Of a stretch of DNA of 35,602 nucleotides, positions 1-17,110 are shown piece after piece. The position numbers and the translations under genes are program-made. The stretch is from contig JAUHXR010000058.1 of NCBI GenBank assembly GCA_030426845.1, forward strand, positions 1 to 35,602, in the 5' to 3' direction. The stretch is from Polyangia bacterium. Its GTDB lineage: Bacteria > Myxococcota_A > Polyangia > Polyangiales > Sandaracinaceae. Under the pieces are notes generated by a model that searched no databases, was not told the origin of the DNA, and saw only the letters and a program-made list of their open reading frames with translations. Within the stretch, counting starts at the first letter, position 1, and each line of letters opens with the position of its first letter.

Positions 1-1394
1 GTCGGGTCGACGTCGCGCTTGAGCATCCAGGCGATCGCCTTGATGCGTCGCCAGAGGCGCGTCTCTTCGGGCGAGCGGGCGGCGAGGGCCTCGTAGATCT
101 TGAGCGCCTTGTCGAGCTCGCCCCGGACGACCAGCGCCTCGGCCTCGCGCTCGCGGCCGCCCACCTGCACGTCGGTCGGGACGTCCCAGCGGTCCTCGCC
201 CTCGCCGACCTCGCCCGGCTCGAAGGTCGCCGGCTGCGCCTCGAAGAGCGGCACGCCGGACCAGCTCGAGGTCGCGTCCTGGTCGACCCGCGTGTAGGTC
301 GGCTCGTCGCCCTGCTGCGCGTAGCGGTGCTCGGGGAGCGTGAGCTCGCCGGTGTGCAGCGGCGCGTGGATCGGATCGTCGCTCAGCGCCTCACGCGACG
401 GGATCGGGGGGCTCGACGGCGCGCGCGGCGGCGGGGGCTCCGACTCGTAGGGCGGCGGGGTCAGCACGTCGTCGATCGCCTCGAGCTCCTCGATGCTCGG
501 GCGCTTGAACGTCCGCGACGGCGTCACCGGGAGCTCGACGTCGACCTCGATCTCGAGCTCCTCCGCCGCGTCGTCGAGCGCGAGCTCCGGCGACGACGAG
601 GCCGGCTCGTCGTCCTCGAGGTCGAGGTCGTCGAAGAGGTGATCGAGGTCGGAGTCGACCTGCGCCGGCGAGTCCTCCGCGGCCATCTGGCGGCGCAGCT
701 CGTCGAGCGGCAGCTCGCCGTCCTTGGCCACCCGCGTCGCCTCGCGCAGCCCGGCGCGGCTCGCGCGGGAGCGGTCGTCGAACGCCTCGACCTCCTCGAT
801 CGAGACCTCGTGGGTGGCGTCGTTCAGCGTCGGGTGGGCCGGCTCGTCGACGACCTCGTCGGCCTCGAGATCGACGAGCACGGACTCGAGCGGGATCGGC
901 TCGGGCGTCGTCGGCTTGAGCGTCGGCCCGCCGACCCGGGTGGGGGCCTGGTGCTCGTCGACCGCCCGCAGCTCGGCCTCGCTCGGCGCGCTGACCGCGT
1001 TCGACGGCTCGCGCGGCGGCAGGGGCTGGGCCGCGAGCACCGCGAGGACGACCTCGACTCGGTGGGTGAGCCGGCGCGCGCGCGCGGGGTCCTCCGCGGC
1101 CGCCGCCGGGTCGCGGTAACAGGCGAGCGCCCCCGCGAGGTCGGCGGTCTCGAGCCGCTCGGCCGCGCGCAGGAACGGCGAGCCGGCGGTGCCCTCGCCC
1201 TTGCCCTCGCGGCCGCCGAACCAGACCTGCGACGTGAGCATCTCGAGCGCCTCGACGAGGCGGCGCGCGTCATCGTCGCCGGGCGCGCGCATCGCGACGC
1301 GGCGCGCAGCTTCGAGCGCGGCCGTCAGGTCGCCCGCCTCGAGGGGAGCCCGCAGCGCCTGCGCGAGGGCCCCCGGCTTTGACTCGTTGCCCAC
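1..1394 (-). CDS. TPR-like acidic/proline-rich protein, 3' end beyond the window
   Basis: An open frame of 464 codons reads from GTG at 1394 to the left edge without a stop, so the C-terminus is missing. The N-terminal ~110 residues are Ala/Arg/Leu-rich and look helical. A long Glu/Asp/Pro/Ser-rich stretch follows (roughly residues 120-400), with short phrases such as SIEEVEAFDD and SIEELEAIDD, and is probably disordered. Near the edge the frame becomes helical again, with RGELDKALKIYEALAARSPE, a good match to a tetratricopeptide helix pair. No signal peptide or membrane segment is visible, so it is probably cytoplasmic. The frame was chosen because its codon bias fits and no other frame is open throughout; the GTG has no clear ribosome site. 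A sigma70-like promoter lies at 1420-1448. I infer a scaffold or adaptor role only from the TPR-like end. Confidence 0.72.
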   Translation of the reverse strand, partial: MGNESKPGALAQALRAPLEAGDLTAALEAARRVAMRAPGDDDARRLVEALEMLTSQVWFGGREGKGEGTAGSPFLRAAERLETADLAGALACYRDPAAAAEDPARARRLTHRVEVVLAVLAAQPLPPREPSNAVSAPSEAELRAVDEHQAPTRVGGPTLKPTTPEPIPLESVLVDLEADEVVDEPAHPTLNDATHEVSIEEVEAFDDRSRASRAGLREATRVAKDGELPLDELRRQMAAEDSPAQVDSDLDHLFDDLDLEDDEPASSSPELALDDAAEELEIEVDVELPVTPSRTFKRPSIEELEAIDDVLTPPPYESEPPPPRAPSSPPIPSREALSDDPIHAPLHTGELTLPEHRYAQQGDEPTYTRVDQDATSSWSGVPLFEAQPATFEPGEVGEGEDRWDVPTDVQVGGREREAEALVVRGELDKALKIYEALAARSPEETRLWRRIKAIAWMLKRDVDP

Positions 1395-1419
1395 GTGACG
1401 CGCCGGGGAGGAACACCCG

Positions 1420-1448
1420 ATCAGACCCGGTTTGAGCGGTCCAGTCAA
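1420..1448 (-). promoter_or_regulatory. sigma70-like promoter for the TPR-like gene
   Basis: On the minus strand TTGACT (1443-1448) is followed after exactly 17 nt by TCTGAT (1420-1425). This places a transcript start near 1413, about 19 nt before the GTG at 1394. The -35 box overlaps the ATG at 1448 on the other strand, which slightly favours the later start (1532) for the acyltransferase gene. Confidence 0.45.
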
Positions 1449-1531
1449 TGACGGCGGCGCCGCGCGCCGCAGGCGCCGAGTTGGCGAGTCGGCCGTTCGC
1501 GTGCGATGTGGAGCACCGCGAGGCGCGCTGG

Positions 1532-3019
1532 ATGTATTTCAACAGCTTCGACTACGTGGTCTTCCTGACCCTCGTGTTCGTCGCGTACTGGACGCTCGAG
1601 CCGGTCACGAGCCCGCTCGCGCGCAGCCTCCCGATGGACCCGGAGCGCCGTCGCCGCCTGCTGTCGGCCGCGCGCACCGGGCTGCTCCTGATCGCCTCCT
1701 ACCTGTTCTACATGTCGTGGAACGCGCTGTTCATCGTCCTGATCATCGCGTCCACGCTCGTCGACTACGGGGTCGGGCTCGCGCTCGGCCGCACGGAGTC
1801 GGAGCCAGCGCGCAAGGCGCTCGTCACGCTGAGCCTCGTCCTCAACCTCGGGATGCTCGGCGCCTTCAAGTACCTCGACTTCGGCCTGGTCGCCGCGTCG
1901 CAGACCGCGGGCCTCTTCGGGGTCACGTGGGAGCCCGAGCTGCTCCACCTGATCCTGCCGGTCGGGATCTCGTTCTACACGTTCCAGACCCTCAGCTACA
2001 CGATCGACGTCTACCGCCGGCGGATCCCGCCGCACCGCGACGTCCTCGAGTTCGCGACCTACGTCGCGTTCTTCCCGCAGCTCGTGGCCGGCCCGATCGT
2101 GCGGGCCAAGGAGTTCCTGCCACAGTTCCAGCGCGAGCCGCGCCTGAGCCAGCGGCAGGCGCAGAGCGGCGTCTACCTGATCCTGCGCGGGCTCGTGAAG
2201 AAGGTCGCGATCGCCGACTTCCTCGCGGTGCAGCTCATCGACCGCGTCTTCGACAACCCCGAGGTCTTCGCCGCGAGCGAGGTCTGGGTCGCGGTCTACG
2301 CCTACACCTGGCAGCTCTACGGCGACTTCAGCGGCTACACCGACATCGCCCGCGGCAGCGCGCGGCTCCTCGGCTACGAGCTGCCCGAGAACTTCAACCG
2401 CCCGTTCAACACGACCGGCCCGATCGAGTTCTGGAAGAGCTGGCACATCACGTTGTCAACGTGGGTCCAGGACTACATCTACATCCCGCTCGGCGGCAGC
2501 CGGCGCGGGTTCGCGCGCAGCTACGCGAACCTGTTCCTGTCGTTCTTCATCATCGGCGTCTGGCACGGGGCCGGCTGGACGTTCGTGATCTTCGGCCTCT
2601 ACCACGCGTTCGGGGTCACCCTGAACCGCCTGTTCCGGCAGATCCGCCAGCGCCTCGGCTACTCCGGCGAGCCCCCCGAGGGTGGCCTCAAGCGCGCCCT
2701 CCTCGTCTTCGTGAGCGTCAACTTCTTTGCCATTCACTGGCCGATCTTCCGCTCGCCCGATCTCGACACGATGCTCGCCGTCTACCGGCAGATGCTCGAG
2801 ACGGGGCCGCAGTCGATGCGGGTCGGGCCGTGGGTCTGGGCGGTGATCGTCGGGATGGGGGTCGTCCACTTCTGCCCGCGCGCGTGGGTGGACGGCGCGG
2901 AGAAGACGCTGCGCGAGCTGCCGTGGCCGGTGTTCGGGCTCCTCGCGGCCGCGATCGCCGCGCTCCTGATGCACATCGCCGCCGGGCAGGCCGCGCCGTT
3001 CATCTACTTCCAGTTCTGA
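1532..3019 (+). CDS. MBOAT-family membrane O-acyltransferase (AlgI/DltB type)
   Basis: A polytopic membrane protein of 495 residues. MBOAT proteins of this type pass acyl groups across the inner membrane so that a periplasmic partner can acylate a polysaccharide, as in alginate O-acetylation by AlgI. Visible hallmarks are MYFNSFDYVVFL at the N-terminus, QLVAGPIVRAKEFLPQF, then FWKSWHITLSTWVQDY with family His 305, YIPLGGSR, and WHGAGWTFVIFGLYHAF with the invariant catalytic His 358. I chose ATG 1532 because AlgI-like proteins begin with this sequence; an in-frame ATG at 1448 would add 28 residues unlike the family. Two SGNH-type proteins downstream (5206 and 7007) are the expected periplasmic partners. 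Family assignment is firm; the acceptor glycan is unknown. Confidence 0.9.
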   Translation: MYFNSFDYVVFLTLVFVAYWTLEPVTSPLARSLPMDPERRRRLLSAARTGLLLIASYLFYMSWNALFIVLIIASTLVDYGVGLALGRTESEPARKALVTLSLVLNLGMLGAFKYLDFGLVAASQTAGLFGVTWEPELLHLILPVGISFYTFQTLSYTIDVYRRRIPPHRDVLEFATYVAFFPQLVAGPIVRAKEFLPQFQREPRLSQRQAQSGVYLILRGLVKKVAIADFLAVQLIDRVFDNPEVFAASEVWVAVYAYTWQLYGDFSGYTDIARGSARLLGYELPENFNRPFNTTGPIEFWKSWHITLSTWVQDYIYIPLGGSRRGFARSYANLFLSFFIIGVWHGAGWTFVIFGLYHAFGVTLNRLFRQIRQRLGYSGEPPEGGLKRALLVFVSVNFFAIHWPIFRSPDLDTMLAVYRQMLETGPQSMRVGPWVWAVIVGMGVVHFCPRAWVDGAEKTLRELPWPVFGLLAAAIAALLMHIAAGQAAPFIYFQF

Positions 3020-3038
3020 ACCGCGCGCGCGCCGCCGC

Positions 3039-3044
3039 TATCCT
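3039..3044 (+). promoter_or_regulatory. -10 box TATCCT, leaderless start of the oxidoreductase gene
   Basis: TATCCT ends 8 nt before the ATG at 3053, so transcription should begin at or next to the start codon. A weak -35 candidate, CTGAAC (3016-3021), lies 17 nt upstream. Confidence 0.45.
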
Positions 3045-3052
3045 GCGCGGCG

Positions 3053-5194
3053 ATGACCCACTACCGGACGTGCCCGCTCTGCGAGGCGATGTGCGGCCTC
3101 GCGATCGAGACCGAGGGCGAGCGCGTGACCTCGATCCGCGGCGACGACGCCGACCCGCTGAGCCGCGGCTACCTCTGCCCCAAGGGGCCCGCGCTCGCGG
3201 CGCTGCACGAGGACCCGGACCGGCTGCGCCGGCCGCTCAAGCGCGAGGGCGATCGCTTCGTCGAGGTGGGGTGGGCCGAGGCCCTCGACCTCGCGGCGGA
3301 GGGGCTGCACCGCGTGCAGCAGGCGCGCGGCCGCGACGCGGTCGCGACCTACCTCGGCAACCCGACGATCCACAGCCCAGGGGCGGCGATGTTCACCCCG
3401 ATGATCGTCAAGGCGCTGCGCACCCGGAGCCGCTTCAGCGCCACCTCGGTCGATCAGCTCGCCCACCACCTCGCGGCGCACTGGGTGTTCGGCCACCAGT
3501 TCCTCCTGCCGGTGCCCGACCTCGCGCGGACCGAGCACCTGCTGATCCTCGGCGCCAACCCGCTCGCGTCGAACGGCAGCCTGATGACCGCGCCCGGGAT
3601 GCGCGCGCGGCTCAAGGCGATCCGCGCGCGGGGCGGGCGGGTGGTGGTGGTCGACCCGCGCCGCACCGAGACGGCCGAGGCGGCGGACGCGCACCACGCG
3701 ATCCGACCGGGGACCGACGCGTGGCTCCTCGCCGCGCTCACCCGATACGCGATCGCGCACGGGCGCGGGCTCGGCCGGCTCGCGCCGCACGCCGAGCGGC
3801 TCGAGGTGCTCCGCGCGGCGATGGCGCCGTTCACGGTCGAGGCGGCGGCGGCGCAGACGGGGCTCGAGGCCAGCGCGATCGAGGCGATGGCGGACGCCCT
3901 CTGCCGAGCCGATCGCGCGGTCGTCTACGGGCGCATGGGGCTCTCGACGCAGCGCTTCGGCGGGATCTGCCAGTGGCTCATCCACGCGCTCAACGCGGTG
4001 ACCGGCAACCTCGACCGCGAGGGCGGCGCGATGCTGCCGTCGCCCGCGATCGATCTCGTCCGCGCGCCGTTCGGCCTCGGCATCGGCCGGGGCAGCTACG
4101 GCCGCTGGCGCAGCCGGGTGCGCGGCCTCCCCGAGGTGGGCGGCGAGCTGCCGGTGGCCGTCCTCGCGGAGGAGATCCTGACCGAGGGCGAGGGCCAGCT
4201 CCGCGGCCTGCTCACGAGCGCGGGCAACCCGGTGCTCTCGACCCCGAACGGCGGCCAGCTCGATCGCGCGCTGGAGGAGCTCGACTTCATGGTGAGCGTC
4301 GACTTCTACCTGAACGAGACGACGCGACACGCCGACGTGATCCTGCCGCCGGTCTCGCCGCTCGAGCGGCCGCACTACGACCTCGCGTTCCACCAGCTCG
4401 CGGTCCACAACACCGCGAAGCTCAGCGACCCGCTCTTCGAGGCGGGGCCGGACGCGCGGCAGGAGTGGCAGATCGCGCTCGGCCTGATCGAGCGGCTCGG
4501 CCGCCTCCGCGGGCGCTGGGGCCTCAAGGAGCGGGCGCGCCACGCGACCCTCGCGCGGCTCGGGGTGACCGGGATGATCGACGTCGCGCTCCGCGCCGGG
4601 CCCTACGGTCTGCGCCGCTCGCCGACCGACGGGCTGAGCGCGGCCAAGCTCCGCCGGCACCCCCACGGGATCGACCTCGGGCCGCTCGTGCCGCGGCTCC
4701 CCGAGGCGATGGAGGGCTTCGCGACCCGCATCGATCTCGCGCCCGGCGCGTTCGTGGACGACCTGGCCCGGCTCGAGCGGGAGCCCCCGGAGCCGGGCCT
4801 GAGCCTGGTCGGGCGGCGGCACCTCCGGAGCAACAACTCCTGGATGCACAACGTCGAGAAGCTGATGGCTGGAAAGGCCATATGCACACTCCAGATCCAC
4901 CCGGAGGACGCGGCCGAGCGCTCGCTCACCGACGGCGCGCTCGCGCGGGTGCGCTCCCGGGTCGGCGAGGTCGAGGTGCCGGTCGAGGTGACCGACGCGA
5001 TGATGCGGGGCGTGGTGAGCCTGCCGCACGGGTTCGGCCACGGCCGCGAGGGGGTGCGGCTCGGCGTGGCCCGCGCGCACGCGGGGGTGAGCGCGAACGA
5101 CCTCACCGACGAGCGGCGGGTCGACCCGCTCACCGGCGCGGCGGCGCTCAACGGGACCCCGGTCGAGGTGGCGCGCGCGACCGATGTGCCCTAA
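3053..5194 (+). CDS. molybdopterin-dependent oxidoreductase (formate dehydrogenase/BisC-like)
   Basis: A 713-residue member of the Mo-bisMGD oxidoreductase superfamily. The N-terminus has a [4Fe-4S] motif at Cys 7, 10, 14 and 42 (CPLCEAMC and later LCPKG), followed by the catalytic molybdopterin domain. Typical segments include LGNPTIHSPG, LGANPLASNG, VVDPRRTETAEAA and AVTGNLDREGG. The C-terminal dinucleotide-binding domain includes SNNSW (593-597) and ANDLTDE near the end. No Tat signal is present, so it is probably cytoplasmic, like stand-alone assimilatory-type enzymes. At the usual molybdenum-ligand position the sequence reads SATSVDQ (129-135), with no Cys or selenocysteine. Substrate and electron partner cannot be told; no subunit or cofactor gene lies nearby. 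It starts 33 nt after the acyltransferase gene but has its own -10 box. Confidence 0.88.
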   Translation: MTHYRTCPLCEAMCGLAIETEGERVTSIRGDDADPLSRGYLCPKGPALAALHEDPDRLRRPLKREGDRFVEVGWAEALDLAAEGLHRVQQARGRDAVATYLGNPTIHSPGAAMFTPMIVKALRTRSRFSATSVDQLAHHLAAHWVFGHQFLLPVPDLARTEHLLILGANPLASNGSLMTAPGMRARLKAIRARGGRVVVVDPRRTETAEAADAHHAIRPGTDAWLLAALTRYAIAHGRGLGRLAPHAERLEVLRAAMAPFTVEAAAAQTGLEASAIEAMADALCRADRAVVYGRMGLSTQRFGGICQWLIHALNAVTGNLDREGGAMLPSPAIDLVRAPFGLGIGRGSYGRWRSRVRGLPEVGGELPVAVLAEEILTEGEGQLRGLLTSAGNPVLSTPNGGQLDRALEELDFMVSVDFYLNETTRHADVILPPVSPLERPHYDLAFHQLAVHNTAKLSDPLFEAGPDARQEWQIALGLIERLGRLRGRWGLKERARHATLARLGVTGMIDVALRAGPYGLRRSPTDGLSAAKLRRHPHGIDLGPLVPRLPEAMEGFATRIDLAPGAFVDDLARLEREPPEPGLSLVGRRHLRSNNSWMHNVEKLMAGKAICTLQIHPEDAAERSLTDGALARVRSRVGEVEVPVEVTDAMMRGVVSLPHGFGHGREGVRLGVARAHAGVSANDLTDERRVDPLTGAAALNGTPVEVARATDVP

Positions 5195-5205
5195 CACGGG
5201 CGGGA

Positions 5206-6972
5206 ATGCGAGCGCCGGCCGCGCTCGTCGGGCCCACCATGACGACCACCGAAGCGAGCGAAGGACCGGGCGCGCACCCCGCCGGGGTCACGCGCGCGGT
5301 CCTGATCGCGCTCGTCATGGCCTCGGTGGCGTGGCTCCCCTACGTGGTGCCGGGCTTCGAGGAGCTGCAGGTGGTGGGGCCCAACGACGGCTGGCCGCTC
5401 GCCGATCTGCTGCGGCGCGATCCGCGGCAGGGCGGCGCCGGGCTCGCGGGGGCGTTCCGCCGGCCGCCGCTCGTGACGATCGAGGACGACGACGCGCTCC
5501 TCGCGGCCGCGCCCCTGCCGCCGGCGCTCGCGATCACGCCGCGCGCGCCCGCGCTCGAGGACGAGGCCGGCGAGGCCTCCGTGGCCGAGCCGGCCGCGGC
5601 CCACGAGCGGGCGGAAGGCGACCCCGACGAGGCCGCCGAGCTGGGTGGGACCGAGCTCGCAGAGACCGAGCTCGCGGAGACCGAGCTCGCGGAGACCGAG
5701 GGCGAAGACACCGAGGGCGACACCGAGGGCGACACCGAGGGCGCGGGCGAGCGGCCGCCGGCGACCCCCGTCCCCGTCGAGCGGGTCGACTCGGTGCAGT
5801 ACGAGGGCCTCACCCAGGAGATCGAGGACCCGCGCCACTCCATGCGCGCGTTCTACTCGCAGCTCTCGCGCGTCCACGCGGGCCGCCCGCAGCTCGCGCG
5901 CATCGGGGTCTACGGCACCTCCACCAACGGCGCCGACCGCATGACGTCGCAGCTCCGCCGGCTGATGCAGGAGCGCTTCGGGGACGGCGGCAAGGGGTGG
6001 GTCCCGGTCGCAGCCGGCTGGCGCTTCCAGCGGCACCAGGACGTGAGCTGGGAGCACGACCACTGGCGCACCTTCGTGATCAACCGGGGCGACGCGCCCC
6101 TGCACCGCTTCGGCTACGGCGGCGTGCTCGCGATCAACCGGCACCGCGGCGCGGTCAGCCGGATCGGCACCGTCGACGGCGACCCGGGGCGCGCGGTGAG
6201 CCGGCTGCGGCTCTTCTACCAGGCGTTCCCCGAGGGCGGGACGCTGCGCATCCAGGCGGACGACGGGCCGGCCCAGGAGCTCGACACCCACGCCGACGCG
6301 GTGGAGGACCGCACCTTCGAGCTGCGGGTCCCCGACGGGCCGCACACCTTCACCCTCCGCGCGGGCGACGAGGACGCGCAAGAGAACCTGCGTCTCTACG
6401 GTGTCACGATGGAGCGCGACGGGCCCGGCGTGGTGGTCGACGGCCTCGCGCTCATCGGCGCGTTCACGCGGGTGCTCCGCCTCTCGGATCCGGCGCACCT
6501 CGCGACCCAGGTGCGCCAGCGCGACCCCGACCTGCTCGTGTTCTGGATGGGCGCAAACGACGCGGTGAGCGAGTCGGTCGCCTTCGTGCGCGACCGCTAC
6601 GTGGAGCACTACCGGACGATCCTGCGGCGCTACCAGGACGCCAACCCGGACATGAGCTGCATGGTCATGTCGATCCTCGACAAGGGAGAGCGCGTCGACG
6701 GCCACATCCGCACCCGCGAGCGGGTGCCGCGGCTCGTGGAGGCCCAGCGCGAGGTCGCGCTCGCGGAGGGCTGCGCGTTCTTCAACACCTACGAGGCGAT
6801 GGGCGGCCAGGGGACGATGCGGCGCTGGTACGAGAACCGCCCGCGCCTCGTCACCGACGACCTCGGCCACCTCACCGCGTCGGGCTCGCGCATCCTCGGG
6901 ACGCTCCTCTACCGGGCCCTGGTGAAGGGCTACGACGACTGGATCGCCGACGGCCAGCCGACCGGGCGTTGA
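5206..6972 (+). CDS. membrane-anchored SGNH-hydrolase-like protein, probable O-acyltransferase partner
   Basis: A 588-residue protein with an N-terminal membrane anchor (AVLIALVMASVAWLPYVV) and a periplasmic acidic linker that includes tandem Glu-Thr repeats from about residue 149. The SGNH-fold domain occupies roughly residues 230-570. Block I reads YGTSTNGAD with candidate nucleophile Ser 239, where Thr replaces the usual Asp of GDS. Block III is FWMGAND (Asn 451, Asp 452) and block V is DLGH (Asp 552, His 555). The phrase RFGDGGKGWVP is shared with the next gene product. Such proteins next to an MBOAT usually transfer or remove acyl groups on cell-surface glycans. ATG 5206 lies 12 nt after the preceding stop; ATG 5239 in the same frame is an equally possible start and keeps the membrane anchor. 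Confidence 0.82.
   Translation: MRAPAALVGPTMTTTEASEGPGAHPAGVTRAVLIALVMASVAWLPYVVPGFEELQVVGPNDGWPLADLLRRDPRQGGAGLAGAFRRPPLVTIEDDDALLAAAPLPPALAITPRAPALEDEAGEASVAEPAAAHERAEGDPDEAAELGGTELAETELAETELAETEGEDTEGDTEGDTEGAGERPPATPVPVERVDSVQYEGLTQEIEDPRHSMRAFYSQLSRVHAGRPQLARIGVYGTSTNGADRMTSQLRRLMQERFGDGGKGWVPVAAGWRFQRHQDVSWEHDHWRTFVINRGDAPLHRFGYGGVLAINRHRGAVSRIGTVDGDPGRAVSRLRLFYQAFPEGGTLRIQADDGPAQELDTHADAVEDRTFELRVPDGPHTFTLRAGDEDAQENLRLYGVTMERDGPGVVVDGLALIGAFTRVLRLSDPAHLATQVRQRDPDLLVFWMGANDAVSESVAFVRDRYVEHYRTILRRYQDANPDMSCMVMSILDKGERVDGHIRTRERVPRLVEAQREVALAEGCAFFNTYEAMGGQGTMRRWYENRPRLVTDDLGHLTASGSRILGTLLYRALVKGYDDWIADGQPTGR
5650..5744 (+). repeat. in-frame minisatellite encoding acidic linker repeats
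   Basis: Three near-identical 15-bp units (5650-5694, encoding TELAE) are followed by nearly three 12-bp units (5710-5744, encoding TEGD). Both unit lengths are multiples of three, so copy number can change without breaking the SGNH gene; the encoded stretch joins the membrane anchor to the catalytic domain. Confidence 0.8.
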
Positions 6973-6997
6973 TCGGCGCGCCGCGGGTCGCGATACT
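6969..6997 (+). promoter_or_regulatory. sigma70 promoter TTGATC-17-GATACT of the second SGNH gene
   Basis: TTGATC (6969-6974) overlaps the end of the upstream gene and is separated by exactly 17 nt from GATACT (6992-6997). The -10 box ends 9 nt before ATG 7007, predicting a leaderless or nearly leaderless transcript. Confidence 0.6.
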
Positions 6998-7006
6998 GAC
7001 CGGCAT

Positions 7007-8176
7007 ATGCGACGCGGGGCAGCGTGGCTCACGGGGGCGACGATCCTGGCGTGGGTCGGCGCGGCGGTCGCGCAGCACCCGGTCACCCCCGTCGTGCGGC
7101 CCGTGCCCATCGAGGGCGCACCTGCGCTGGCGCACTTCCACGAAGCGCTGCGCGCGCTGGAGCGCGGCCAAGGCCGTCAGGTCCGCGTGCTGCACTACGG
7201 CGACAGCAACGTCGCGGCCGACCTCTGGACCCAGGTCGCGCGCGACACCCTGCAGCGACGGTTCGGCGACGGCGGCAGCGGCTACCTGCTGCCGCCGGGG
7301 CACGGGAGCTGGAACCGCGGGCCGGTGCGGGTGAGCCAGGCGCCGGGCTGGGCCACGCGGCGGCGCGGCTTCGCGCGCGACTTCGGCCCGAGCGACGGCC
7401 GGTGGGGCCTGGCCGGGGTGGCGATCGAGCCGGTGGGGCCGACCCGGCCGATCCGCGTCCACGTGCCGGCGGGCCCGGCCGGGCGCGTGTTCCAGCTCCA
7501 CCTGACCGAGGGCCCGCGCGGCGCCGAGGGCGCGGTGCAGCTCACGGTGGGCGAGGCGAGCCCGCGGCTGATCCGCGCGAGCCGCACCGCGGTCGTCGAC
7601 GCGACGCAGCTCGCGCCGGGCGAGCAGACGCTGAGCATCCGGCGGGTGAGCGGCCGGCCGCGGCTGCTCGGCGTGTCGGTCGAGCACCCGCGCGGGGTCG
7701 TCTACGACGTGCTGGGGATCAACGGCCACCGGGCGAGCGCGATCCTGCACTGGGACCTCGAGCTGCTGCGCGCCCAGCTCGCGGCGCGCCCCGCCGACCT
7801 GCTGGTGCTGAGCTACGGCGGCAACGAGGCGCTCGATCCGCAGCTCTCGATGGCGACCTACGAGGCGCAGACCACCGAGGCGGTGCGCCGGATGCGCGCG
7901 CTGACCCCCGGCGCGAGCTGCCTCCTCGTCGGCCCCCTCGCGACCTACCCGCGGCACGCCGAGCGGATGCGTCAGGTCACGCGGATCCAGCGGCAGATCG
8001 CGGCTCGAGCGGGGTGCGGCTTCTGGGACAGCGCGGCGACGTCGGGCGGCCCCGGCACGCTCCCCGCGTGGGCGCGCTTCGAGGGCATGGTCGGGCGCGA
8101 TCACCTTCACCTCGGACGCGCGGGCTACACCCGGGTCGGCGAGGTCTTCGTGGCCGCGCTGCTCCATGGACTCTGA
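7007..8176 (+). CDS. secreted SGNH/GDSL-type esterase or acyltransferase
   Basis: A 389-residue exported protein with a signal peptide (LTGATILAWVGAAVAQ, cleavage probably near residue 22). The SGNH blocks are complete: HYGDSNVAADLW with nucleophile Ser 67, YGGNEALD with Asn 273 (Glu 274 replaces the usual Asp), and DHLH with Asp 365 and His 368. RFGDGGSGYLLPPG after block I matches the previous gene product, so the two are diverged relatives. With the MBOAT gene upstream, it may be the periplasmic enzyme that transfers an acyl group to, or removes it from, a surface polysaccharide. Such a role is inferred from gene context and fold; the acceptor is unknown. The gene has its own promoter and ends 31 nt before the kinase gene. 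Confidence 0.85.
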   Translation: MRRGAAWLTGATILAWVGAAVAQHPVTPVVRPVPIEGAPALAHFHEALRALERGQGRQVRVLHYGDSNVAADLWTQVARDTLQRRFGDGGSGYLLPPGHGSWNRGPVRVSQAPGWATRRRGFARDFGPSDGRWGLAGVAIEPVGPTRPIRVHVPAGPAGRVFQLHLTEGPRGAEGAVQLTVGEASPRLIRASRTAVVDATQLAPGEQTLSIRRVSGRPRLLGVSVEHPRGVVYDVLGINGHRASAILHWDLELLRAQLAARPADLLVLSYGGNEALDPQLSMATYEAQTTEAVRRMRALTPGASCLLVGPLATYPRHAERMRQVTRIQRQIAARAGCGFWDSAATSGGPGTLPAWARFEGMVGRDHLHLGRAGYTRVGEVFVAALLHGL

Positions 8177-8192
8177 GCGCGCGGTTCTGATG

Positions 8193-8198
8193 TAGACT
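8193..8198 (+). promoter_or_regulatory. -10 box TAGACT, leaderless start of the Ser/Thr kinase gene
   Basis: TAGACT ends 9 nt before ATG 8208. No convincing -35 hexamer is found at 16-18 nt upstream, so an activator or another sigma factor may be involved. Confidence 0.45.
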
Positions 8199-8207
8199 GG
8201 TTCGCGG

Positions 8208-10676
8208 ATGGAGAAGGAGGACCTCGGGGCAGTCGACGAGGCCCGGGCCGAAGCGCCCGACCCGGCCGACTCCACCGACGAGGGCTCCCCGGCCGCCGAG
8301 CCCGACAGCGACGAGCGCGTGTCGCGCCCCGTCCCGAAGGTCGTCGCCGAGGCGTCCATCCAGCTCTCCCAGACCTTCCAGTCGGAGGTCCACGCGCATC
8401 GCTCGCCGTCCGATCGACCGGTCCCGAAGCCGCGCTCGGTCGAGCTGTCGCGGACCTTCCAGTCCGAGGTCGAGCAGCTCCGCAAGCCGCCGGCCCCGCC
8501 CCGCATCCCGCCGCCGCGCGTCTCCCTCTCCGCCCCCCCTCCGCCCCCGCCGAGCGGCGAGCGCGTGCGGGCCGAGCGGCTCGCCAAGCGCTTACGCGAG
8601 CGCTCATCGCAGAAGACGCCGGCGCTCGGGAGCGGGATCCCGCCGCGGCCGGACGAAGCCGCGAGCGAGACCTCGAGCCCGCCGCGCTCCGCCCCCCCGC
8701 CGCGCGTCGCCCCCACGCCGCGCTCCGCCCCCACGCCGTCCCCGGGCGCGAGCGCCGACTCCAGGCCCACGCCCTCGAAGCCCGCGCCCTCGAGCCCGCC
8801 CCTCCCGCGGCGCGTGCCGTCGCAGCGAGCGACCCTCGACGGAGTGCCGGTCCCATCGGCGCGCCCGTCCCGGACGCCGCTCGTCAGCGCCCGCTCGACC
8901 GCACCCTTCCCCGTCCCGGCGATCCCCACCGTGCCGGCGCCGCCCCCGGAAGAAGACCCCATCCTCGAGCCTCCGCCGCTGGAGGACGAGCCGTTGGAGG
9001 ACGAGCCGGCGGAGATCGAGCCGGCGGAGGCCGCCTCCCGCGCGACCCTCGAGGGGCCCGCCCCGACGATGGAGGAGATCGAGGAGGCGAAGCGCGAGCG
9101 CGAGGGCACCGCGCCGTCCCTCGAGTCCCCGCCGGGGGTGCCGCTCGAGCTGACCCCCACCGACACCGCGCGCTCGCCCACCCGGCCCCAGCCCGAGACC
9201 CTGACGCGCGAGGAGCCCGAGGCGCCGCACACCGAGCCGCTGCCCGCGTTCCGCAGCGAGCTGCTCGACTCGATGGACCCGGGCGCGGCGGAGCCGAGCG
9301 ACGAGGTCGACCTCAAGGCCACGTTCATCTCGGAGGTCATCGGGTTCGAGGAGGGGGGCAGCGACCCGCCCGCGGACGAGCCCGAGCTGAGCGTGGAGCG
9401 CCGCGGCGCGACCGACACCGAGGGGGCGGACGCCACGGACGACGACGACCCGTTCGGGGACCTCTCGACCGGCACGGAGCTCGGCGGGCGCTACCGGCTC
9501 GAGCGGGTGATCGGGCGCGGCGCGACCGGCGTGGTGTTCGAGGCGTCGCACCTCGTCATCGGCAAGCGCGTCGCGCTCAAGTGCCTCTACCCGCACTACC
9601 TCGAGACGCCGAACGCGGTGGAGCGCTTCTTCCGCGAGGCGAAGATCGCGGCCACCGTGGAGCACCCGAACGTGGTGCAGGTCTTCGACGGCGGCGACGC
9701 GGGCGACACGATGTTCCTCGCGATGGAGCTGCTGCTGGGCGAGACGCTCGGCGATCGGCTCGAGCGCGGCCCCATCCCGGTCGACGAGGCGGTCGAGATG
9801 TTCCTCAAGGTCGCCGACGGGATCGCGGCCGTGCACGCGTTCGGGGTGGTCCATCGGGACCTGAAGCCCGACAACGTGTTTCTCCCTCGACCGAAGGGCG
9901 ATCGCCCGGTCGAGCCGAAGGTCCTCGACTTCGGCGTCAGCAAGCTCAAGGAGCCGGGCCGCAAGGAGCTCACCTCGCTCGGGACGGTGCTCGGGACGCC
10001 CTACTACATGGCGCCCGAGCAGATCCGGAACACGCGCGACGTGGACGCGTCCGCCGACGTCTACTCGCTCGGCGTGATCCTCTACGAGATGATCGCGGGC
10101 GAGCTGCCCTACGAGGGCGACAGCGTGGTGGACATCTTCGAGGCGGCCCGGGACGGGGTCCGGACGCCGCTCGACAAGCTCGTGGGCGACCTGCCGGCGG
10201 GGCTCTCGGACATCGTCGAGCGGTCGATGAGCGCGGCGCGCGAGGAGCGCTACCCGACGGCCCGGGAGCTCCACGCCGCGGTCCAGGCGGTGGCCACGCA
10301 GGGGACCGATCCGGAGCGCGACCCGCCGACCGATCCGCGCCAGACGGTGCGCGAGCCGATGCGCTCGCCCTTCGCGCGCTCGCCCGGCGAGGGGCCGGGC
10401 GACGCGGTCACGCCCGAGGTGGTGCGGCCGGACTCGGTGCCCGACAGGGACCTCGAGCAGCTCGCCCAGCAGTCCGACGCGGTGCTGTCGGGGCGGCGCG
10501 AGATGAAGACCGTCGAGCTCGCGCCGTCGAGCGCGGACGAGGCGGCGACGATCGAGCGCCCCGAGCTCCGGGAGCCGCCGCCCAAGCGCCGCGTCGGGCT
10601 CTGGATCGGGGTGCTCCTGACGGTCCTCGTCATCAGCGCGGTGATCGGCGCCGCCGCCCTCGAGCTGCTCCGCTAG
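8208..10676 (+). CDS. eukaryotic-type Ser/Thr protein kinase, tail-anchored, with long disordered N-terminus
   Basis: An 822-residue kinase. Residues 1-420 are Pro/Ser/Glu-rich and almost certainly disordered. They carry three copies of a short motif: LSQTFQSEV (near 53-61), LSRTFQSEV (80-88) and LKATFISEV (369-377). The kinase domain begins near 425 with the glycine loop GRGATGVVFEA. ATP-binding Lys is 458 (VALK), the catalytic loop is HRDLKPDN (His 549, Asp 551), and the metal-binding DFG Asp is 574; GTPYYMAPEQ closes the activation segment. All catalytic residues are present, so it should be active. A single hydrophobic segment (about 797-818) lies at the extreme C-terminus, so the kinase faces the cytoplasm as a tail-anchored protein. 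Targets are unknown. Confidence 0.93.
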   Translation: MEKEDLGAVDEARAEAPDPADSTDEGSPAAEPDSDERVSRPVPKVVAEASIQLSQTFQSEVHAHRSPSDRPVPKPRSVELSRTFQSEVEQLRKPPAPPRIPPPRVSLSAPPPPPPSGERVRAERLAKRLRERSSQKTPALGSGIPPRPDEAASETSSPPRSAPPPRVAPTPRSAPTPSPGASADSRPTPSKPAPSSPPLPRRVPSQRATLDGVPVPSARPSRTPLVSARSTAPFPVPAIPTVPAPPPEEDPILEPPPLEDEPLEDEPAEIEPAEAASRATLEGPAPTMEEIEEAKREREGTAPSLESPPGVPLELTPTDTARSPTRPQPETLTREEPEAPHTEPLPAFRSELLDSMDPGAAEPSDEVDLKATFISEVIGFEEGGSDPPADEPELSVERRGATDTEGADATDDDDPFGDLSTGTELGGRYRLERVIGRGATGVVFEASHLVIGKRVALKCLYPHYLETPNAVERFFREAKIAATVEHPNVVQVFDGGDAGDTMFLAMELLLGETLGDRLERGPIPVDEAVEMFLKVADGIAAVHAFGVVHRDLKPDNVFLPRPKGDRPVEPKVLDFGVSKLKEPGRKELTSLGTVLGTPYYMAPEQIRNTRDVDASADVYSLGVILYEMIAGELPYEGDSVVDIFEAARDGVRTPLDKLVGDLPAGLSDIVERSMSAAREERYPTARELHAAVQAVATQGTDPERDPPTDPRQTVREPMRSPFARSPGEGPGDAVTPEVVRPDSVPDRDLEQLAQQSDAVLSGRREMKTVELAPSSADEAATIERPELREPPPKRRVGLWIGVLLTVLVISAVIGAAALELLR

Positions 10677-10732
10677 GAGCTTGATGAGCGCCCGGGCCAG
10701 CGCCGCTGGCCCGTAGCGAATCAAGCTCCTAG
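10673..10732. terminator. nested-hairpin bidirectional terminator between convergent genes
   Basis: Perfect 13-nt arms CTAGGAGCTTGAT (10673-10685) and ATCAAGCTCCTAG (10720-10732) enclose a second hairpin, GGGCCAG (10694-10700) and CTGGCCC (10706-10712), with loop CGCCG. The left arm contains the kinase gene's stop codon. It sits between convergent genes ending at 10676 and 10760. There is no long T-tract, so it may act by pairing alone or block transcript decay. Confidence 0.7.
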
Positions 10733-10759
10733 CGCGCGGCGGGTCGGTCGCTCCGCGGC

Positions 10760-11083
10760 TCAGCCGTACCAGCGGTAGAGCAGCGCGCCGACGGCCGCGA
10801 GGAGCAGCACCGTCCAGAGCACGTTGCTGAGGGTCGAGGGCTTGTCGCTCTCGCCGCCGGTGTCGTCACCCACCCCGGCCGCGCGCTTGAAGCCGGAGCG
10901 CATGCTCTGCATCAACCCGCCGCCCGAGCCGCGCTTGGACACGCCGTAGCCGCCGCCCGAGCTGCTCGAGCTGCTCGAGCTGCTGGCGCGGCTGCTCCGG
11001 CTGCTGCTCCGGCTGCCGCTGCTGCTCGAGCCGCTCTTGCTCGCCTTGTGCTTCTTGATCCGCTTCTGCTTGGACTTGGCCAT
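10760..11083 (-). CDS. small Ser/Arg-rich tail-anchored protein
   Basis: A 107-residue protein of unknown family. It has a Lys-rich N-terminus (MAKSKQKRIKKHKASKSG), an SR-like low-complexity region with runs of Ser and Arg (about residues 18-45), a Gly-rich stretch with a short basic segment (MQSMRSGFKRA), and a C-terminal hydrophobic helix (NVLWTVLLLAAVGALLYRWY) ending at the last residue. This is the layout of a tail-anchored protein with a basic cytoplasmic domain. The start ATG is 6 nt after the stop of the 11446 gene, so the two form an operon. The Ser tract comes from repeated gctgctc-type DNA. Function is unknown; the many serines next to a Ser/Thr kinase gene suggest, without proof, a phosphorylation target. 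Confidence 0.7.
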   Translation of the reverse strand: MAKSKQKRIKKHKASKSGSSSSGSRSSSRSSRASSSSSSSSSGGGYGVSKRGSGGGLMQSMRSGFKRAAGVGDDTGGESDKPSTLSNVLWTVLLLAAVGALLYRWYG

Positions 11084-11089
11084 CCGCGT

Positions 11090-11446
11090 TCAGCCCCCGT
11101 ACTTCGCCTCGATGTCCGCCGCCGAGCCCCCGTGATCGAGGTAGTGCTCGTTGAGCATCGGCTCGTAGCGGAGGATCCAGTAGAACCCGACCATCGTGCG
11201 GTAGACCCCGAGCTGCTTCGCGCTCTTGTTGAAGTACGCCATCCAGCGCGGGTCCCCGGTGCGGTCGGTGAGCTTGAGCTTGGCGAGCGCCTCGGCCGGC
11301 AGGGTCGTCGCCCCGCCGCGGCTCCAGCCGTAGCGGCGGTACAGCGTGGTGAGGTTGATCGACTTGTCGCTCGCGGCGATCGCCTGCCCGTTGTTGAGGG
11401 CGCGATCCACGCGTTGGATCTGCTCGGCCACCTGCTCGGCGCTCAT
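11090..11446 (-). CDS. conserved-looking small hypothetical protein
   Basis: A 118-residue protein that I do not recognise. It has no signal peptide or membrane segment and is predicted cytoplasmic. The sequence is well mixed rather than low-complexity, with aromatic-rich stretches (INLTTLYRRYGWSRGG, GFYWILRYEPM) that suggest a small folded helical domain. It is the first gene of a two-gene minus-strand operon with the Ser/Arg-rich tail-anchored protein. A TATGGT box 6 nt before the ATG supports this start and a leaderless transcript. No function can be assigned. Confidence 0.7.
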   Translation of the reverse strand: MSAEQVAEQIQRVDRALNNGQAIAASDKSINLTTLYRRYGWSRGGATTLPAEALAKLKLTDRTGDPRWMAYFNKSAKQLGVYRTMVGFYWILRYEPMLNEHYLDHGGSAADIEAKYGG

Positions 11447-11452
11447 GCGCGG

Positions 11453-11458
11453 ACCATA
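11453..11458 (-). promoter_or_regulatory. -10 box TATGGT, leaderless start of the two-gene operon
   Basis: On the minus strand TATGGT ends 6 nt before the ATG at 11446, placing the transcript start at the start codon. Confidence 0.45.
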
Positions 11459-11541
11459 GCAGCCCGCGCAACGCCCGACCGCGCCGGATCGCGGTCCCTG
11501 CGTGGCCGCGCGGCGGACCGGGTGAATCGGCGCGGACGCGC

Positions 11542-11547
11542 TACTCT
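11542..11547 (+). promoter_or_regulatory. -10 box TACTCT, leaderless start of the zinc-ribbon gene
   Basis: TACTCT ends 6 nt before ATG 11554. No clear -35 box is seen. Divergent from the box at 11453-11458, so about 100 bp holds both promoters. Confidence 0.45.
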
Positions 11548-11553
11548 GGGACC

Positions 11554-12345
11554 ATGAGCGAGCACGCGCGCTGCCCCGAGTGCGGGAGGGCGACCGAGGC
11601 CGAGGCCGTCGGTGAGGGCTTCGCGGTCTGCGCCGGCTGCGGCCACGTGGTCCGGGCCGCCCCGGCCGCCGCCCTCCGCACGCGCCGCTTCCGGCTGAGC
11701 CGCCCCCGGCTGGGCCTCGGGCTCGCGTCGGCGGTGCTCGACGACGGCGGCCAGGAGCTCGGGCGGGTCCAGCGCGCGCGGCCCGGGCCGCGGCGGTTCC
11801 TGGCGCTGCTCGCGGGGGCGGTCCTCCTCGCGGCGGGGCTCCTCGGGCTGCACGCGCTGGGCGAGCACACCCTGGGCGCGGCCCTGGTGTTCGCCGGCGC
11901 GCCGCTCCTCGCCGTGCTCGCGCTGCGGCTCACCGCGCGCCTCTCGCCGCCGCCCTCCCTCCTCGTGATCCAGAGCGGCCGCGACCCCCGCCTGCTCTTC
12001 GCGGTGCGCCCCCGGACCGAGCGCGGCGCGCGCTGCGAGCTCGACGTCGAGGACGAGAACGGGGCCACGGTCGGCCGGCTGGAGGTCGACCGCGGCCGGC
12101 TCAAGGCGAGCGTCTTCGGGGCGCTGGCGGGGCACGTCGCGATCCACGAGCCGGGCGGGGCGCGCCTCGTCGCACGCCGCGTCTCGAGGGTCCGGCCCGG
12201 CGCGGTGTTCGAGGACGCCGAGGGTGAGGTGGTGGCCACGGTCGGGCTGAGCGGTGGGCTCGGGTTCGACGAGCTCCGGATCAGCGACGCTTCGGACGTC
12301 GATCCCCGCCTCGTGCTCGCGGCGTCCCTCGTCGCCGCGCCCTAG
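11554..12345 (+). CDS. zinc-ribbon membrane protein with C-terminal beta-rich domain
   Basis: A 263-residue protein. The N-terminus is a short zinc ribbon: CPECG at residues 5-9 and CAGCG about 20 residues later. Near residues 85-135 there are two hydrophobic helices (FLALLAGAVLLAAGLLGL and LVFAGAPLLAVLALRL). The C-terminal half is beta-rich, with phrases such as LLVIQSG, LLFAVRP, CELDVEDENGATVGRLEV and VVATVGLSGG, where short strands alternate with Gly turns. This pattern recalls the LURP-one/scramblase-like tubby fold, but that is a weak resemblance from reading alone. A two-helix membrane hairpin between cytoplasmic zinc-ribbon and beta domains is inferred. Its start is supported by the -10 box just upstream. 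Function unknown. Confidence 0.7.
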   Translation: MSEHARCPECGRATEAEAVGEGFAVCAGCGHVVRAAPAAALRTRRFRLSRPRLGLGLASAVLDDGGQELGRVQRARPGPRRFLALLAGAVLLAAGLLGLHALGEHTLGAALVFAGAPLLAVLALRLTARLSPPPSLLVIQSGRDPRLLFAVRPRTERGARCELDVEDENGATVGRLEVDRGRLKASVFGALAGHVAIHEPGGARLVARRVSRVRPGAVFEDAEGEVVATVGLSGGLGFDELRISDASDVDPRLVLAASLVAAP

Positions 12346-12406
12346 TCTAGCGGAGCCGTAGCCGATCGAGCGCGCCGCATTCGGCGTTGCCGAGGGGCGC
12401 CGCGCG

Positions 12407-13033
12407 ATGCCACAACGGGGACCGATGGAGGAGCCGGAGCACGAGACGGTCACCGACGAGGAGAGCGTCCGCGCGCGCCGGATCCGCCGGCTCCGGATGG
12501 GGCTGCTCGCGCTGCTGTTCTTCGGCTCCCTCGCCGCGGCCAAGCTCAGCGGGCTCACCGAGTCGATGAGCGTGGAGTCGGTCCGCGACCTCATGCAGTC
12601 GACGGGGCCGTGGGGCTTCTTCGCGTTCATCGGGGTCTTCACCCTCGGCGAGCTCATGCACGTGCCCGGCCTGGTGTTCGTCGGGGCCGCGTCGATCGCC
12701 TACGGGCAGGGCCTCGGGATCGCGGCGAGCTTCGCGGGCGCGCTCACCAGCGTCGCGGTGAGCTTCGTCTTGATCCGCACGATCGGCGGCCAGCCGCTGA
12801 GCGGCTTCAAGCGCCCGATCGTCCAGCGCGTGTTCGCCCGCCTCGAGACCCAGCCGATCCGCACGATCGCGATCCTGCGGATCGTCTTCATCCTCTCGCC
12901 GGCGCTGAACTACGCGCTCGCGATGAGCAAGGTCCGTTTCCGCGACTTCCTCATCGGCTCGGCCCTCGGGCTCGCCCTGCCGATCCCCCTCGCGGTGGTG
13001 TTCTTCGACTACCTCGCCGACGCGTTCCTGTAG
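12407..13033 (+). CDS. TVP38/TMEM64 (DedA-like VTT domain) membrane protein
   Basis: A 208-residue polytopic membrane protein with a VTT/SNARE-associated domain. Visible features are the first long hydrophobic helix (GLLALLFFGSLAAAKL), then GPWGFFAFIGVFTLGELMHV followed by PGLVFVGAASIAYG, AGALTSVAVSFVLIRTIGG, and the signature LRIVFILSPALNYALAMSKVRF followed by FRDFLIGSALG. Relatives in the DedA/TVP38 superfamily move lipids or polyprenyl-phosphate carriers across membranes; which applies here is not visible. ATG 12407 has GAGGGG about 9 nt upstream; ATG 12425 in frame is an alternative that loses six residues. An intrinsic terminator follows (13061-13091), so this gene does not depend on or run into plsX. 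Confidence 0.82.
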   Translation: MPQRGPMEEPEHETVTDEESVRARRIRRLRMGLLALLFFGSLAAAKLSGLTESMSVESVRDLMQSTGPWGFFAFIGVFTLGELMHVPGLVFVGAASIAYGQGLGIAASFAGALTSVAVSFVLIRTIGGQPLSGFKRPIVQRVFARLETQPIRTIAILRIVFILSPALNYALAMSKVRFRDFLIGSALGLALPIPLAVVFFDYLADAFL

Positions 13034-13060
13034 GCGCGCTCGTCGGCGGCGCCAGGGACG

Positions 13061-13091
13061 AGCCCGGCCGACCGGGACCCTCCGGGCTTTT
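13061..13091 (+). terminator. intrinsic terminator after the TVP38 gene
   Basis: AGCCCGG (13061-13067) pairs with CCGGGCT (13082-13088) across a 14-nt GC-rich loop and is followed by TTT, a rare T-run in this GC-rich DNA. It lies between the stop at 13033 and the plsX promoter at 13112. Confidence 0.6.
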
Positions 13092-13111
13092 CGCGGCGCG
13101 GGGCGAGGCGG

Positions 13112-13117
13112 TACCTT
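13112..13117 (+). promoter_or_regulatory. -10 box TACCTT, leaderless start of plsX
   Basis: TACCTT ends 7 nt before ATG 13125. A poor -35 candidate, TTTTCG (13088-13093), lies 18 nt upstream and overlaps the terminator T-run. Confidence 0.45.
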
Positions 13118-13124
13118 CGGCGGC

Positions 13125-14162
13125 ATGGTCACGGTGGCGCTCGATGCCATGGGGTCGGACCTCGGGCCGGAGGCGACGGTCGGGGGCGCGGCGAAGGCGA
13201 GCCGGCGCGAGGGGGCGCCGCACATCCTCCTCGTGGGCGACGAGGCCATCCTGCGGCGGCAGCTCACCGTTCACGACCACGACCGCGAGCGGCTCCGCAT
13301 CGTGCACGCGCCCTGCTTCGTGACCCAGGAGGACAAGCCCAAGGACGCGCTCGATCGGATGCCGGAGTGCTCGGTCCTGCGCACGACCGAGCTGGTGAAG
13401 CGCGGCGAGGCGGACGTCCTCGTGAGCGCAGGCAACACCGGCGCGGTCACCCTCGCGGCCGCGCGGACCTTCGGGCGGCTCCCCAACGTGAACCGCTGCG
13501 CGCTGGGCGCGGTGTACCCGACGGAGCGTCGGCGCGGAGAGAAGGACGACCCGTTCAGCCTGATCCTCGACGCCGGCCTGACCCTCGAGGTCGACGCGGA
13601 GGACCTCGTCGCCTTCGCAGTGATGGGGTCGGCCTACGCGGCGCGCATCTCGCGCAACCCGGAGCCGCGCGTGGCGCTCCTGTCGAACGGGAGCGAGCCC
13701 GGCAAGGGCACGCGCGCGGTGGTCGAGGCCAACGCGCGCCTCTCGCGGGTCCGCCACCTCAACTTCATCGGCAACATCGAGGGCATGGACATCCCGAAGG
13801 GCACCGCCGACGTGGTGGTCACGGCGGGGTTCACCGGCAACATCGTGCTCAAGATGCTCGAGGGCGTGGCCGAGACGGTGATCCGCCTGGGTCGCTACGC
13901 GGGCGATCAGAGCCTGCGCTACAAGGCGGGCCTCGGGCTCCTCGCGCCGGCGGTGCGCAAGCTGCGACGCGCGACCGACTGGGAGCAGTACGGCGGCGTG
14001 CCGATCCTCGGCTTCGACCACCTGTGCATCAAGGCCCACGGCCGGTCCACCGAGCGCGCGATCGCCAACGCGATCCGGGTAGCGTCGCGCACCGCCCAGA
14101 CCGGGCTCGTGCAGGCGATGGACGAGCACCTCCGCGCCCTCGACGACGTCGAAATTAGCTGA
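13125..14162 (+). CDS. plsX: phosphate acyltransferase PlsX
   Basis: A 345-residue cytoplasmic or peripheral membrane enzyme that converts acyl-ACP to acyl-phosphate, the first step of the PlsX/PlsY route to lysophosphatidic acid. Family features are VALDAMGSD at the N-terminus (usually AMGGD), SAGNTGAVTLAAAR, NRCALGAVYP, LLSNGSEPGKGT, FIGNIEGMDIPKG, VTAGFTGNIVLKMLEG, QYGGVPILGFD and the C-terminal KAHGRSTERAI. Length is normal for the family. The start fits both the conserved N-terminus and the -10 box. The usual neighbours rpmF and fabH are absent. Its last 8 bp overlap the 3' end of the convergent histidine-kinase gene. Confidence 0.96.
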   Translation: MVTVALDAMGSDLGPEATVGGAAKASRREGAPHILLVGDEAILRRQLTVHDHDRERLRIVHAPCFVTQEDKPKDALDRMPECSVLRTTELVKRGEADVLVSAGNTGAVTLAAARTFGRLPNVNRCALGAVYPTERRRGEKDDPFSLILDAGLTLEVDAEDLVAFAVMGSAYAARISRNPEPRVALLSNGSEPGKGTRAVVEANARLSRVRHLNFIGNIEGMDIPKGTADVVVTAGFTGNIVLKMLEGVAETVIRLGRYAGDQSLRYKAGLGLLAPAVRKLRRATDWEQYGGVPILGFDHLCIKAHGRSTERAIANAIRVASRTAQTGLVQAMDEHLRALDDVEIS

Positions 14163-16269: not shown

Positions 16270-16278
16270 GGGGCTTCC

Positions 16279-17043
16279 CTATCCGTCCGAGGGCGGCTCG
16301 AGCTCGGCCACGAAGCGGTAGCCGCGGCCGCGCACCGTCTCGATCCAGCCCTCGCCGCCCGGCACCTGCCGGAGCTTGGCGCGGAGCTGCTGCACGTGGA
16401 CGTCGACCGTCCGGGTGCGGACGCTCCCGTCGTTGTAGCCCCACACGTCGACCAGGAGCTCGGCCCGCTCGACCGGCCGGTGGCGACGCTCGACGAGGTA
16501 GCCGATGAGCCGCGCCTCACGCGCGGTGAGCCGCACCGGCTCACCTGCCTCGCACACGGTCTGCGCGTCGAGGTCGACCTCCACCCCGCCGACGCGGAAC
16601 GCCTTGGGGCGCTCGGGCGCGGGGCGCGGTCGACGCAGCAGCCCGCGGGCCCGCGCGACGAGCTCGCGCACCCCGAACGGCTTGGTGACGTAGTCGTCGG
16701 CCCCCGCCTCGAGACCGGCCACGATGTCCTCCTCGGACCCGCGCGCGGTGAGCACCAGGACCGGCGTCTCGTCGCCGCCCGCGCGGGTCCGCCGCAGCAC
16801 GGTGAGCCCGTCGACCTCCGGCATCATCAGGTCGAGCACCACGAGGTCGAAGCGCCGGCGCGCGAGCTGCTCGAGCGCGGCCGCGCCGTCCGGCGCGCAG
16901 GTCGTGCGGAAGCCCTGGGCGCTGAAGAGGGCGTCGAGGCCGTCGAGGATCGGGGCCTCGTCCTCCACGAGGAGCACGCGCGGCGGCGCGAGGTCGACGT
17001 CGCTCATGATGCTGACTGTCGCGGGCGCGGGTTCGCCTGTCAC
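16279..17043 (-). CDS. OmpR/PhoB-type response regulator
   Basis: A 254-residue two-component regulator, partner of the kinase encoded 9 nt downstream. The receiver domain begins RVLLVEDEAPILDGL, with acidic residues near 28-29, phospho-acceptor Asp 71 in LDLMMPEVDG, the Thr in VLVLTARG and the switch Lys in VTKPFG. The winged-helix DNA-binding domain has LTAREARLIGYLVE, ELLVDVWGY, TVDVHVQQLRAKL and ETVRGRGYRFV. I chose GTG 17043 because a TAGCCT box lies 6 nt upstream; in-frame ATG 17007 would still leave the whole receiver domain. A direct repeat typical of OmpR-family sites lies just upstream (17076-17092), suggesting autoregulation. Confidence 0.93.
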   Translation of the reverse strand: MTGEPAPATVSIMSDVDLAPPRVLLVEDEAPILDGLDALFSAQGFRTTCAPDGAAALEQLARRRFDLVVLDLMMPEVDGLTVLRRTRAGGDETPVLVLTARGSEEDIVAGLEAGADDYVTKPFGVRELVARARGLLRRPRPAPERPKAFRVGGVEVDLDAQTVCEAGEPVRLTAREARLIGYLVERRHRPVERAELLVDVWGYNDGSVRTRTVDVHVQQLRAKLRQVPGGEGWIETVRGRGYRFVAELEPPSDG

Positions 17044-17049
17044 CCCTGA

Positions 17050-17055: not shown

Positions 17056-17075
17056 AGGGCGAGCCGGCCGCGGCG

Positions 17076-17092: not shown

Positions 17093-17110
17093 ATTGCCGC
17101 CGCCCCGGTT

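Follow-up and report, generated by a model that had tools for sequence, protein, structure and literature searches.

The question raised by this locus is whether a molybdoenzyme can have a part in acylating the glycans of a bacterial envelope. The locus lies in a stretch of 35,602 nucleotides from a Polyangia bacterium of the family Sandaracinaceae (GenBank assembly GCA_030426845.1, contig JAUHXR010000058.1). We call this stretch the window; it is one entire contig (C103) out of the 538 that make up a genome assembly of 9.4 Mb. In it the gene for an MBOAT-family acyltransferase is followed by a gene for a molybdopterin oxidoreductase (MOP) and then by the genes for two SGNH-type proteins, SGNH1 and SGNH2. 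The original prediction, made from the sequence, took the MBOAT and SGNH genes for a surface O-acylation cassette and proposed from the gene spacing that MOP co-evolves with it. We consider it highly likely that this is instead an envelope polysaccharide O-acylation cluster of a known type, interrupted by an unrelated, stand-alone MOP through ordinary gene shuffling. The acyl group is probably acetyl, so the reaction would be O-acetylation. All of our support comes from genes and models: domains, predicted folds, conserved catalytic residues, the order of MBOAT and SGNH1, and the lack of linkage between MOP and the rest.

Our search covered 76 genomes from the window's order, among them the genome it comes from. 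With paralogues counted, MOP is matched at E <= 1e-80 in 41 of them, SGNH1 in 64 and MBOAT in 69. Of the 20 loci with the best MBOAT matches, 17 have an SGNH1 homologue no more than 1.5 kb downstream of MBOAT and on its strand. The remaining three are the window and the loci of two relatives, G005 and G008, and all three have inserts. Only one of the 20 contains a MOP match, and it is the window. The conserved unit is MBOAT then SGNH1; many relatives have their second SGNH gene on the other strand. Genes in the relatives' loci were called with a model trained on the window's genes, which gives rough starts and performs badly on one locus (L092).

The nearest relatives that have the cassette are G003, G005 and G008. 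They keep MBOAT (70-71% identical), SGNH1 (67-72%) and SGNH2 (59-62%) together on one contig and carry MOP (68-69%) on a different contig. The gap between MBOAT and SGNH1, where MOP stands in the window, is empty in G003. In G005 and G008 it holds an SDR-like gene on the minus strand and MATE-like and CobW-like genes. The labels were given by eye, that of the MATE-like gene excepted, which matches a gene of the window. A paralogous cassette in G005 has a hybrid-kinase-like gene of 1311 residues in this position (L096 8678-12613). Because the gap is empty in one relative and variously filled in two others and in this paralogue, it tolerates unrelated genes, and we count MOP as one of them. The window's own genome has a second cassette (G000:C79, cut by the contig edge) whose MBOAT is 48% and SGNH1 41% identical, with no gene between them.

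Looking outward from MOP leads to the same place. We collected 159 MOP loci, which represent 116 distinct MOP genes when merged on a shared 150-residue stretch (117 under a looser rule), the lowest best-segment identity being 46.6%. Flanking sequence is available on both sides to at least 5 kb for 69 of the 116 and to at least 1.4 kb for 103. These flanks were scanned by tblastn with the window's own proteins at E <= 1e-3, a search that very distant MBOAT or SGNH proteins could escape. A homologue of either was found beside one of the 116 genes, the window's own (L211), which served as the control; an earlier count over 100 of these loci had found none. The order MBOAT-MOP-SGNH-SGNH, whose conservation the original prediction had suggested checking, was seen only in the window among these 116 genes. 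The prediction had also held that a link would fail if MOP did not accompany the MBOAT and SGNH genes outside close relatives, and in fact it stands away from their orthologues even in G003, G005 and G008. We therefore reject co-evolution of MOP with the cassette, since the two are unlinked in the relatives, in the MBOAT loci and in the MOP flanks. The O-acylation cassette survives, its MBOAT and SGNH genes being conserved as a unit across the taxonomic order. On the evidence of the nearest relatives and the 115 other MOP genes, the trivial neighbourhood that the prediction had offered as an alternative is the better reading of MOP.

No widely shared neighbour of MOP was found in the relatives of the order or in a wider set of loci, where a MOP gene was callable in 76 of 93 (short gene calls were excluded in both sets). 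In 20 relatives of the order, the neighbours shared up to three genes from MOP are either same-genus pairs or members of generic families such as SDR. In Pseudomonas and related loci (L168-L195) a block recurs in which the MOP orthologue adjoins an argF-like gene (14 loci, the myxobacterial L101 included) and a monothiol-glutaredoxin-like gene (13), often with bacterioferritin-like (10) and peroxiredoxin-like (7) genes after them, all labelled by eye. Relatives of MOP at 47-69% identity, among the best 80 of 587, come from Myxococcota, Pseudomonas, Streptomyces and other Actinomycetota, Bacteroidota and Acidobacteriota. With members in several phyla and no neighbour that most of them have in common, the MOP family is an orphan enzyme.

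The enzyme itself has 713 residues and scores above cut-off for PF00384, PF01568 and PF04879, the molybdopterin, dinucleotide-binding and Fe4S4 domains. Cys7, Cys10, Cys14 and Cys42 are found in all 13 rows of one alignment (A1, the window and 12 of 20 relatives) and in those rows of a 20-row alignment that cover these sites (the window and 19 of the 20 relatives, L101 being dropped for a short gene call). MOP is probably cytoplasmic, since the Cys motif starts at residue 7 and leaves a signal peptide no room. Its nearest solved relatives are the Thermus thiosulfate (polysulfide) reductase 2vpw (132 bits) and YjgC/FdhF-type enzymes (122-130 bits). The match to 2vpw runs over the whole length and shares the N-terminal Cys motif, but the 2vpw Cys that we take to be the molybdenum ligand aligns with Asp134 of MOP. 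In other members of the superfamily the ligand is Cys, selenocysteine or Ser. All 20 aligned orthologues have Asp134-Gln135; two paralogues in the same genome (L004 and L005) have Asp-Cys at this site. MOP also differs from 2vpw and the FdhF-type enzymes in that no gene for a partner subunit was recognised beside it.

The genes of the locus are listed in Table 1.

Table 1. Genes at and around the acylation cluster, in window coordinates.
Gene	Position	Strand	Description
w3	3..1394	-	Pro/Glu-rich, divergent from the MBOAT gene; C-terminus cut by contig edge; start uncertain
MBOAT	1532..3019	+	AlgI/PatA-type O-acyltransferase; invariant His305 and His345; C-terminal FIYFQF
MOP	3053..5194	+	Stand-alone molybdopterin oxidoreductase, DMSO reductase superfamily; N-terminal [4Fe-4S]-type Cys motif
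SGNH1	5239..6972	+	Helix 14-36, disordered acidic linker, Ape1-fold SGNH domain; Ser228-Asp541-His544, Asn440
SGNH2	7007..8176	+	Ape1-fold SGNH; signal-peptide-like N-terminus (by eye); Ser67-Asp365-His368, Asn273
Ser/Thr protein kinase	8208..10676	+	Next gene after SGNH2

The open reading frames and Pfam domains confirm the MBOAT, the oxidoreductase and the two SGNH genes where the original prediction had placed them, and all four frames are open and coding-like. Its description of a doubled acylation pair was not accurate, for a single MBOAT is accompanied by two SGNH proteins, both of the Ape1 fold. The gaps measure 33 bp between MBOAT and MOP, 44 bp between MOP and SGNH1 (11 bp if SGNH1 starts at the ATG at 5206), 34 bp between SGNH1 and SGNH2, and 31 bp between SGNH2 and the kinase. 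The MBOAT start fits, since most aligned homologues have the same first residue. No site resembling a sigma-70 promoter or a terminator was found in 1380-8300, a weak test that says little at 67-80% GC. We use w3 as a synteny marker only and place it outside the acylation system. The kinase also follows SGNH2 in G005 and G008, not in G003. It begins a long block, 8208-18499, that is syntenic with G005 (L090, L198) and contains the kinase, two small genes, a VTT-domain gene, a PlsX-like gene, a sensor kinase, a response regulator and a MATE-like gene.

What remains when MOP is set aside would be a recognisable MBOAT-SGNH acyltransferase system, with a putative catalytic His in the MBOAT, a C-terminal Tyr hexapeptide and a co-encoded SGNH protein with a candidate Ser-Asp-His triad. 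MBOAT matches PF03062 above cut-off (E 8.1e-34). Both of its His residues are invariant in an alignment of 14 rows (A4, in which the L095 row is truncated by a contig edge). The C-terminus reads FIYFQF or YIYFQF, with I-Y-F-Q-F and its Tyr492 kept in all 14 rows. In PatA the hexapeptide Tyr is auto-acetylated and the acyl group is handed to the SGNH partner (PMC12148441); the ending of MBOAT fits such an acyl-Tyr shuttle. The solved structure nearest to MBOAT is DltB, which works with the SGNH partner DltD, but the DltB NCBIfam model gives MBOAT a score of 166.9, below its cut-off of 375. Acylation by AlgI, AlgJ and AlgX likewise joins an MBOAT to an SGNH partner, as the window's cassette does.

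Both SGNH proteins score above the Pfam cut-off for PF13472. Their predicted models (mean pLDDT 77 for SGNH1 and 84 for SGNH2) have the SGNH domain plus beta domain of the Ape1 family, and 4k3u, a peptidoglycan O-acetylesterase, and the Campylobacter jejuni Ape1 structures 8gkd and 8gld head the PDB matches of both. Target-normalised TM scores are 0.89 for SGNH1 against 4k3u and 0.81-0.83 against 8gkd/8gld, and 0.80-0.83 and 0.76-0.78 for SGNH2. The remaining matches among the best 50 for each model fall below 0.65, and neither DltD nor AlgX is named among them. PDB profile searches agree with an Ape1 fold for both. The triad of SGNH1 is intact in 22 of 22 rows (alignment A2, SGNH1-like genes picked from the list of MBOAT loci) and that of SGNH2 in 10 of 10 (A3, one gene of which, from L094, matched SGNH1 best). 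We read the helix of SGNH1 at residues 14-36 as a membrane anchor. Its acidic linker (ELAET/EGDT) is encoded by two adjacent tandem repeats at 5649-5743, one of 15 bp in 4.5 copies and one of 12 bp in 3.1 copies; the rows from G003 and G008 have a shorter linker. Block I of SGNH1 (residues 226-228) reads G-T-S in the window, in G008 (L089) and in G003 (L091) and G-D-S in the other aligned rows, with the Ser kept.

The closest known arrangement is the patA-patB-ape1 OAP cluster of Neisseria and Campylobacter, which is also a short cluster of an MBOAT with a C-terminal hexapeptide and two SGNH proteins (PMC1199599, PMC12148441). The differences lie in the SGNH proteins. PatB departs from typical SGNH esterases at the block II Gly, which is replaced there by Ser or Asn (PMC12148441). 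A Gly is found at position 407 of SGNH1 (22 of 22 rows) and at position 240 of SGNH2 (10 of 10 rows), which on our reading of the alignments would be the block II Gly. Neither SGNH protein of the window's cluster has the PatB residue (PatB was not sought elsewhere in the genome), and a membrane-anchored protein of the Ape1 fold stands where PatB stands in Neisseria. The opposite strand of the second SGNH gene in many relatives is a further difference. Clusters of pat with two Ape1-type genes were described in 2005 (PMC1199599), so the window's layout is not new in kind. Those clusters pair a pat gene with ape1b and ape1c, and some Ape1 proteins there are predicted to be membrane-anchored, but ape1b is upstream of pat, sometimes with ape1c between them, whereas both SGNH genes of the window are downstream. 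In the open-licence literature, the papers that mention molybdopterin together with MBOAT, two among the ten listed of 31, both concern liver-disease genetics, and nothing was found on myxobacterial peptidoglycan O-acetylation with an MBOAT; neither result is proof of absence.

By analogy with PatA, MBOAT would take an acyl group from cytoplasmic acyl-CoA and load it onto the Tyr of its C-terminal hexapeptide. A periplasmic SGNH protein would accept it on its Ser and then pass it to the glycan or remove it again. SGNH1 looks like the transfer partner by its position and membrane anchor, being adjacent to MBOAT in most relatives, and the secreted SGNH2 is likely an esterase or a second transferase. 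The Ape1 fold of the models suggests that the glycan may be peptidoglycan. MOP would take no part. A more specific proposal, that the Ape1-fold SGNH1 is the O-acyltransferase that empties the acyl-tyrosine, which is PatB's job, and that SGNH2 is the opposing esterase, we offer tentatively and think rather more likely to be wrong than right.

Several observations weigh against an unrelated MOP in an otherwise ordinary acylation cluster. The fold and the oxyanion Gly make both SGNH proteins look like esterases, which disfavours SGNH1 as a transferase. The short gaps suggest that here MOP is co-transcribed with the cassette, which may give them shared expression. G005 carries its paralogous cassette and MOP on one contig, though about 182 kb apart. 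There was less than 1.4 kb of flank on one side of 13 of the 116 MOP genes, the searched genomes included no second member of the window's genus, and the junctions of MOP are known from the assembly alone. Finally, the best match to w3 adjoins MOP in G003 and MBOAT in G005 and G008. MOP and the cassette may therefore have shared this place in an ancestor, which would make the association older than one genome. Two lineages keep both MOP and the cassette yet separate them, which argues against a functional tie even if the neighbourhood is older.

How, then, did MOP come to stand where it does? It could work in the pathway, for example through cytoplasmic oxidation of an acyl or sugar intermediate that is then transferred, and the tight, co-oriented spacing in the window speaks for this. 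We give the idea hardly any credence: none of the 115 other distinct MOP genes is near an MBOAT or SGNH homologue in the scanned flanks, G003, G005 and G008 hold the two apart, the paralogous cassette of the same genome has nothing between MBOAT and SGNH1, and orthologues in Pseudomonas, Streptomyces, Bacteroidota and others (among the best 80 of 587 relatives) have no adjoining cassette. An assembly error might also have created the arrangement, given that the assembly is fragmented and that no other searched genome has it. This too seems quite improbable, since both junctions fall between intact genes with the usual short spacing, a relative of w3 ties MOP to this place by neighbouring it in G003, and G005 has w3-MBOAT and SGNH1-SGNH2-kinase through PlsX in the same order. 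A version of the shuffling account, again with no functional link, has MOP already between MBOAT and SGNH1 in the ancestor shared by the three genera and parting from the cassette later in two lineages, instead of arriving in this genus alone. The w3 relative that flanks MOP in G003 and MBOAT in G005 and G008, where the window has both, makes this a serious possibility, although we place it somewhat below an even chance. G003 matches w3 weakly, in two stretches that are not contiguous (55.9 and 47.3 bits), and w3 is matched in only four genomes, the window's and these three, out of ten of the family; further matches of 22.6-29.6 bits lie elsewhere in the three.

We believe the interrupted acylation cluster removes a false lead: short gaps and a shared orientation do not by themselves show that a molybdoenzyme takes part in acylating glycans. 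It also leaves a useful question. The MBOAT and Ape1-fold pair, common among the Polyangiales genomes searched, would be well suited to finding out if an Ape1-type enzyme is able to work as a transferase. If SGNH1 does so and SGNH2 opposes it, writer and eraser would both be made from one fold, so far known from peptidoglycan O-acetylesterases.

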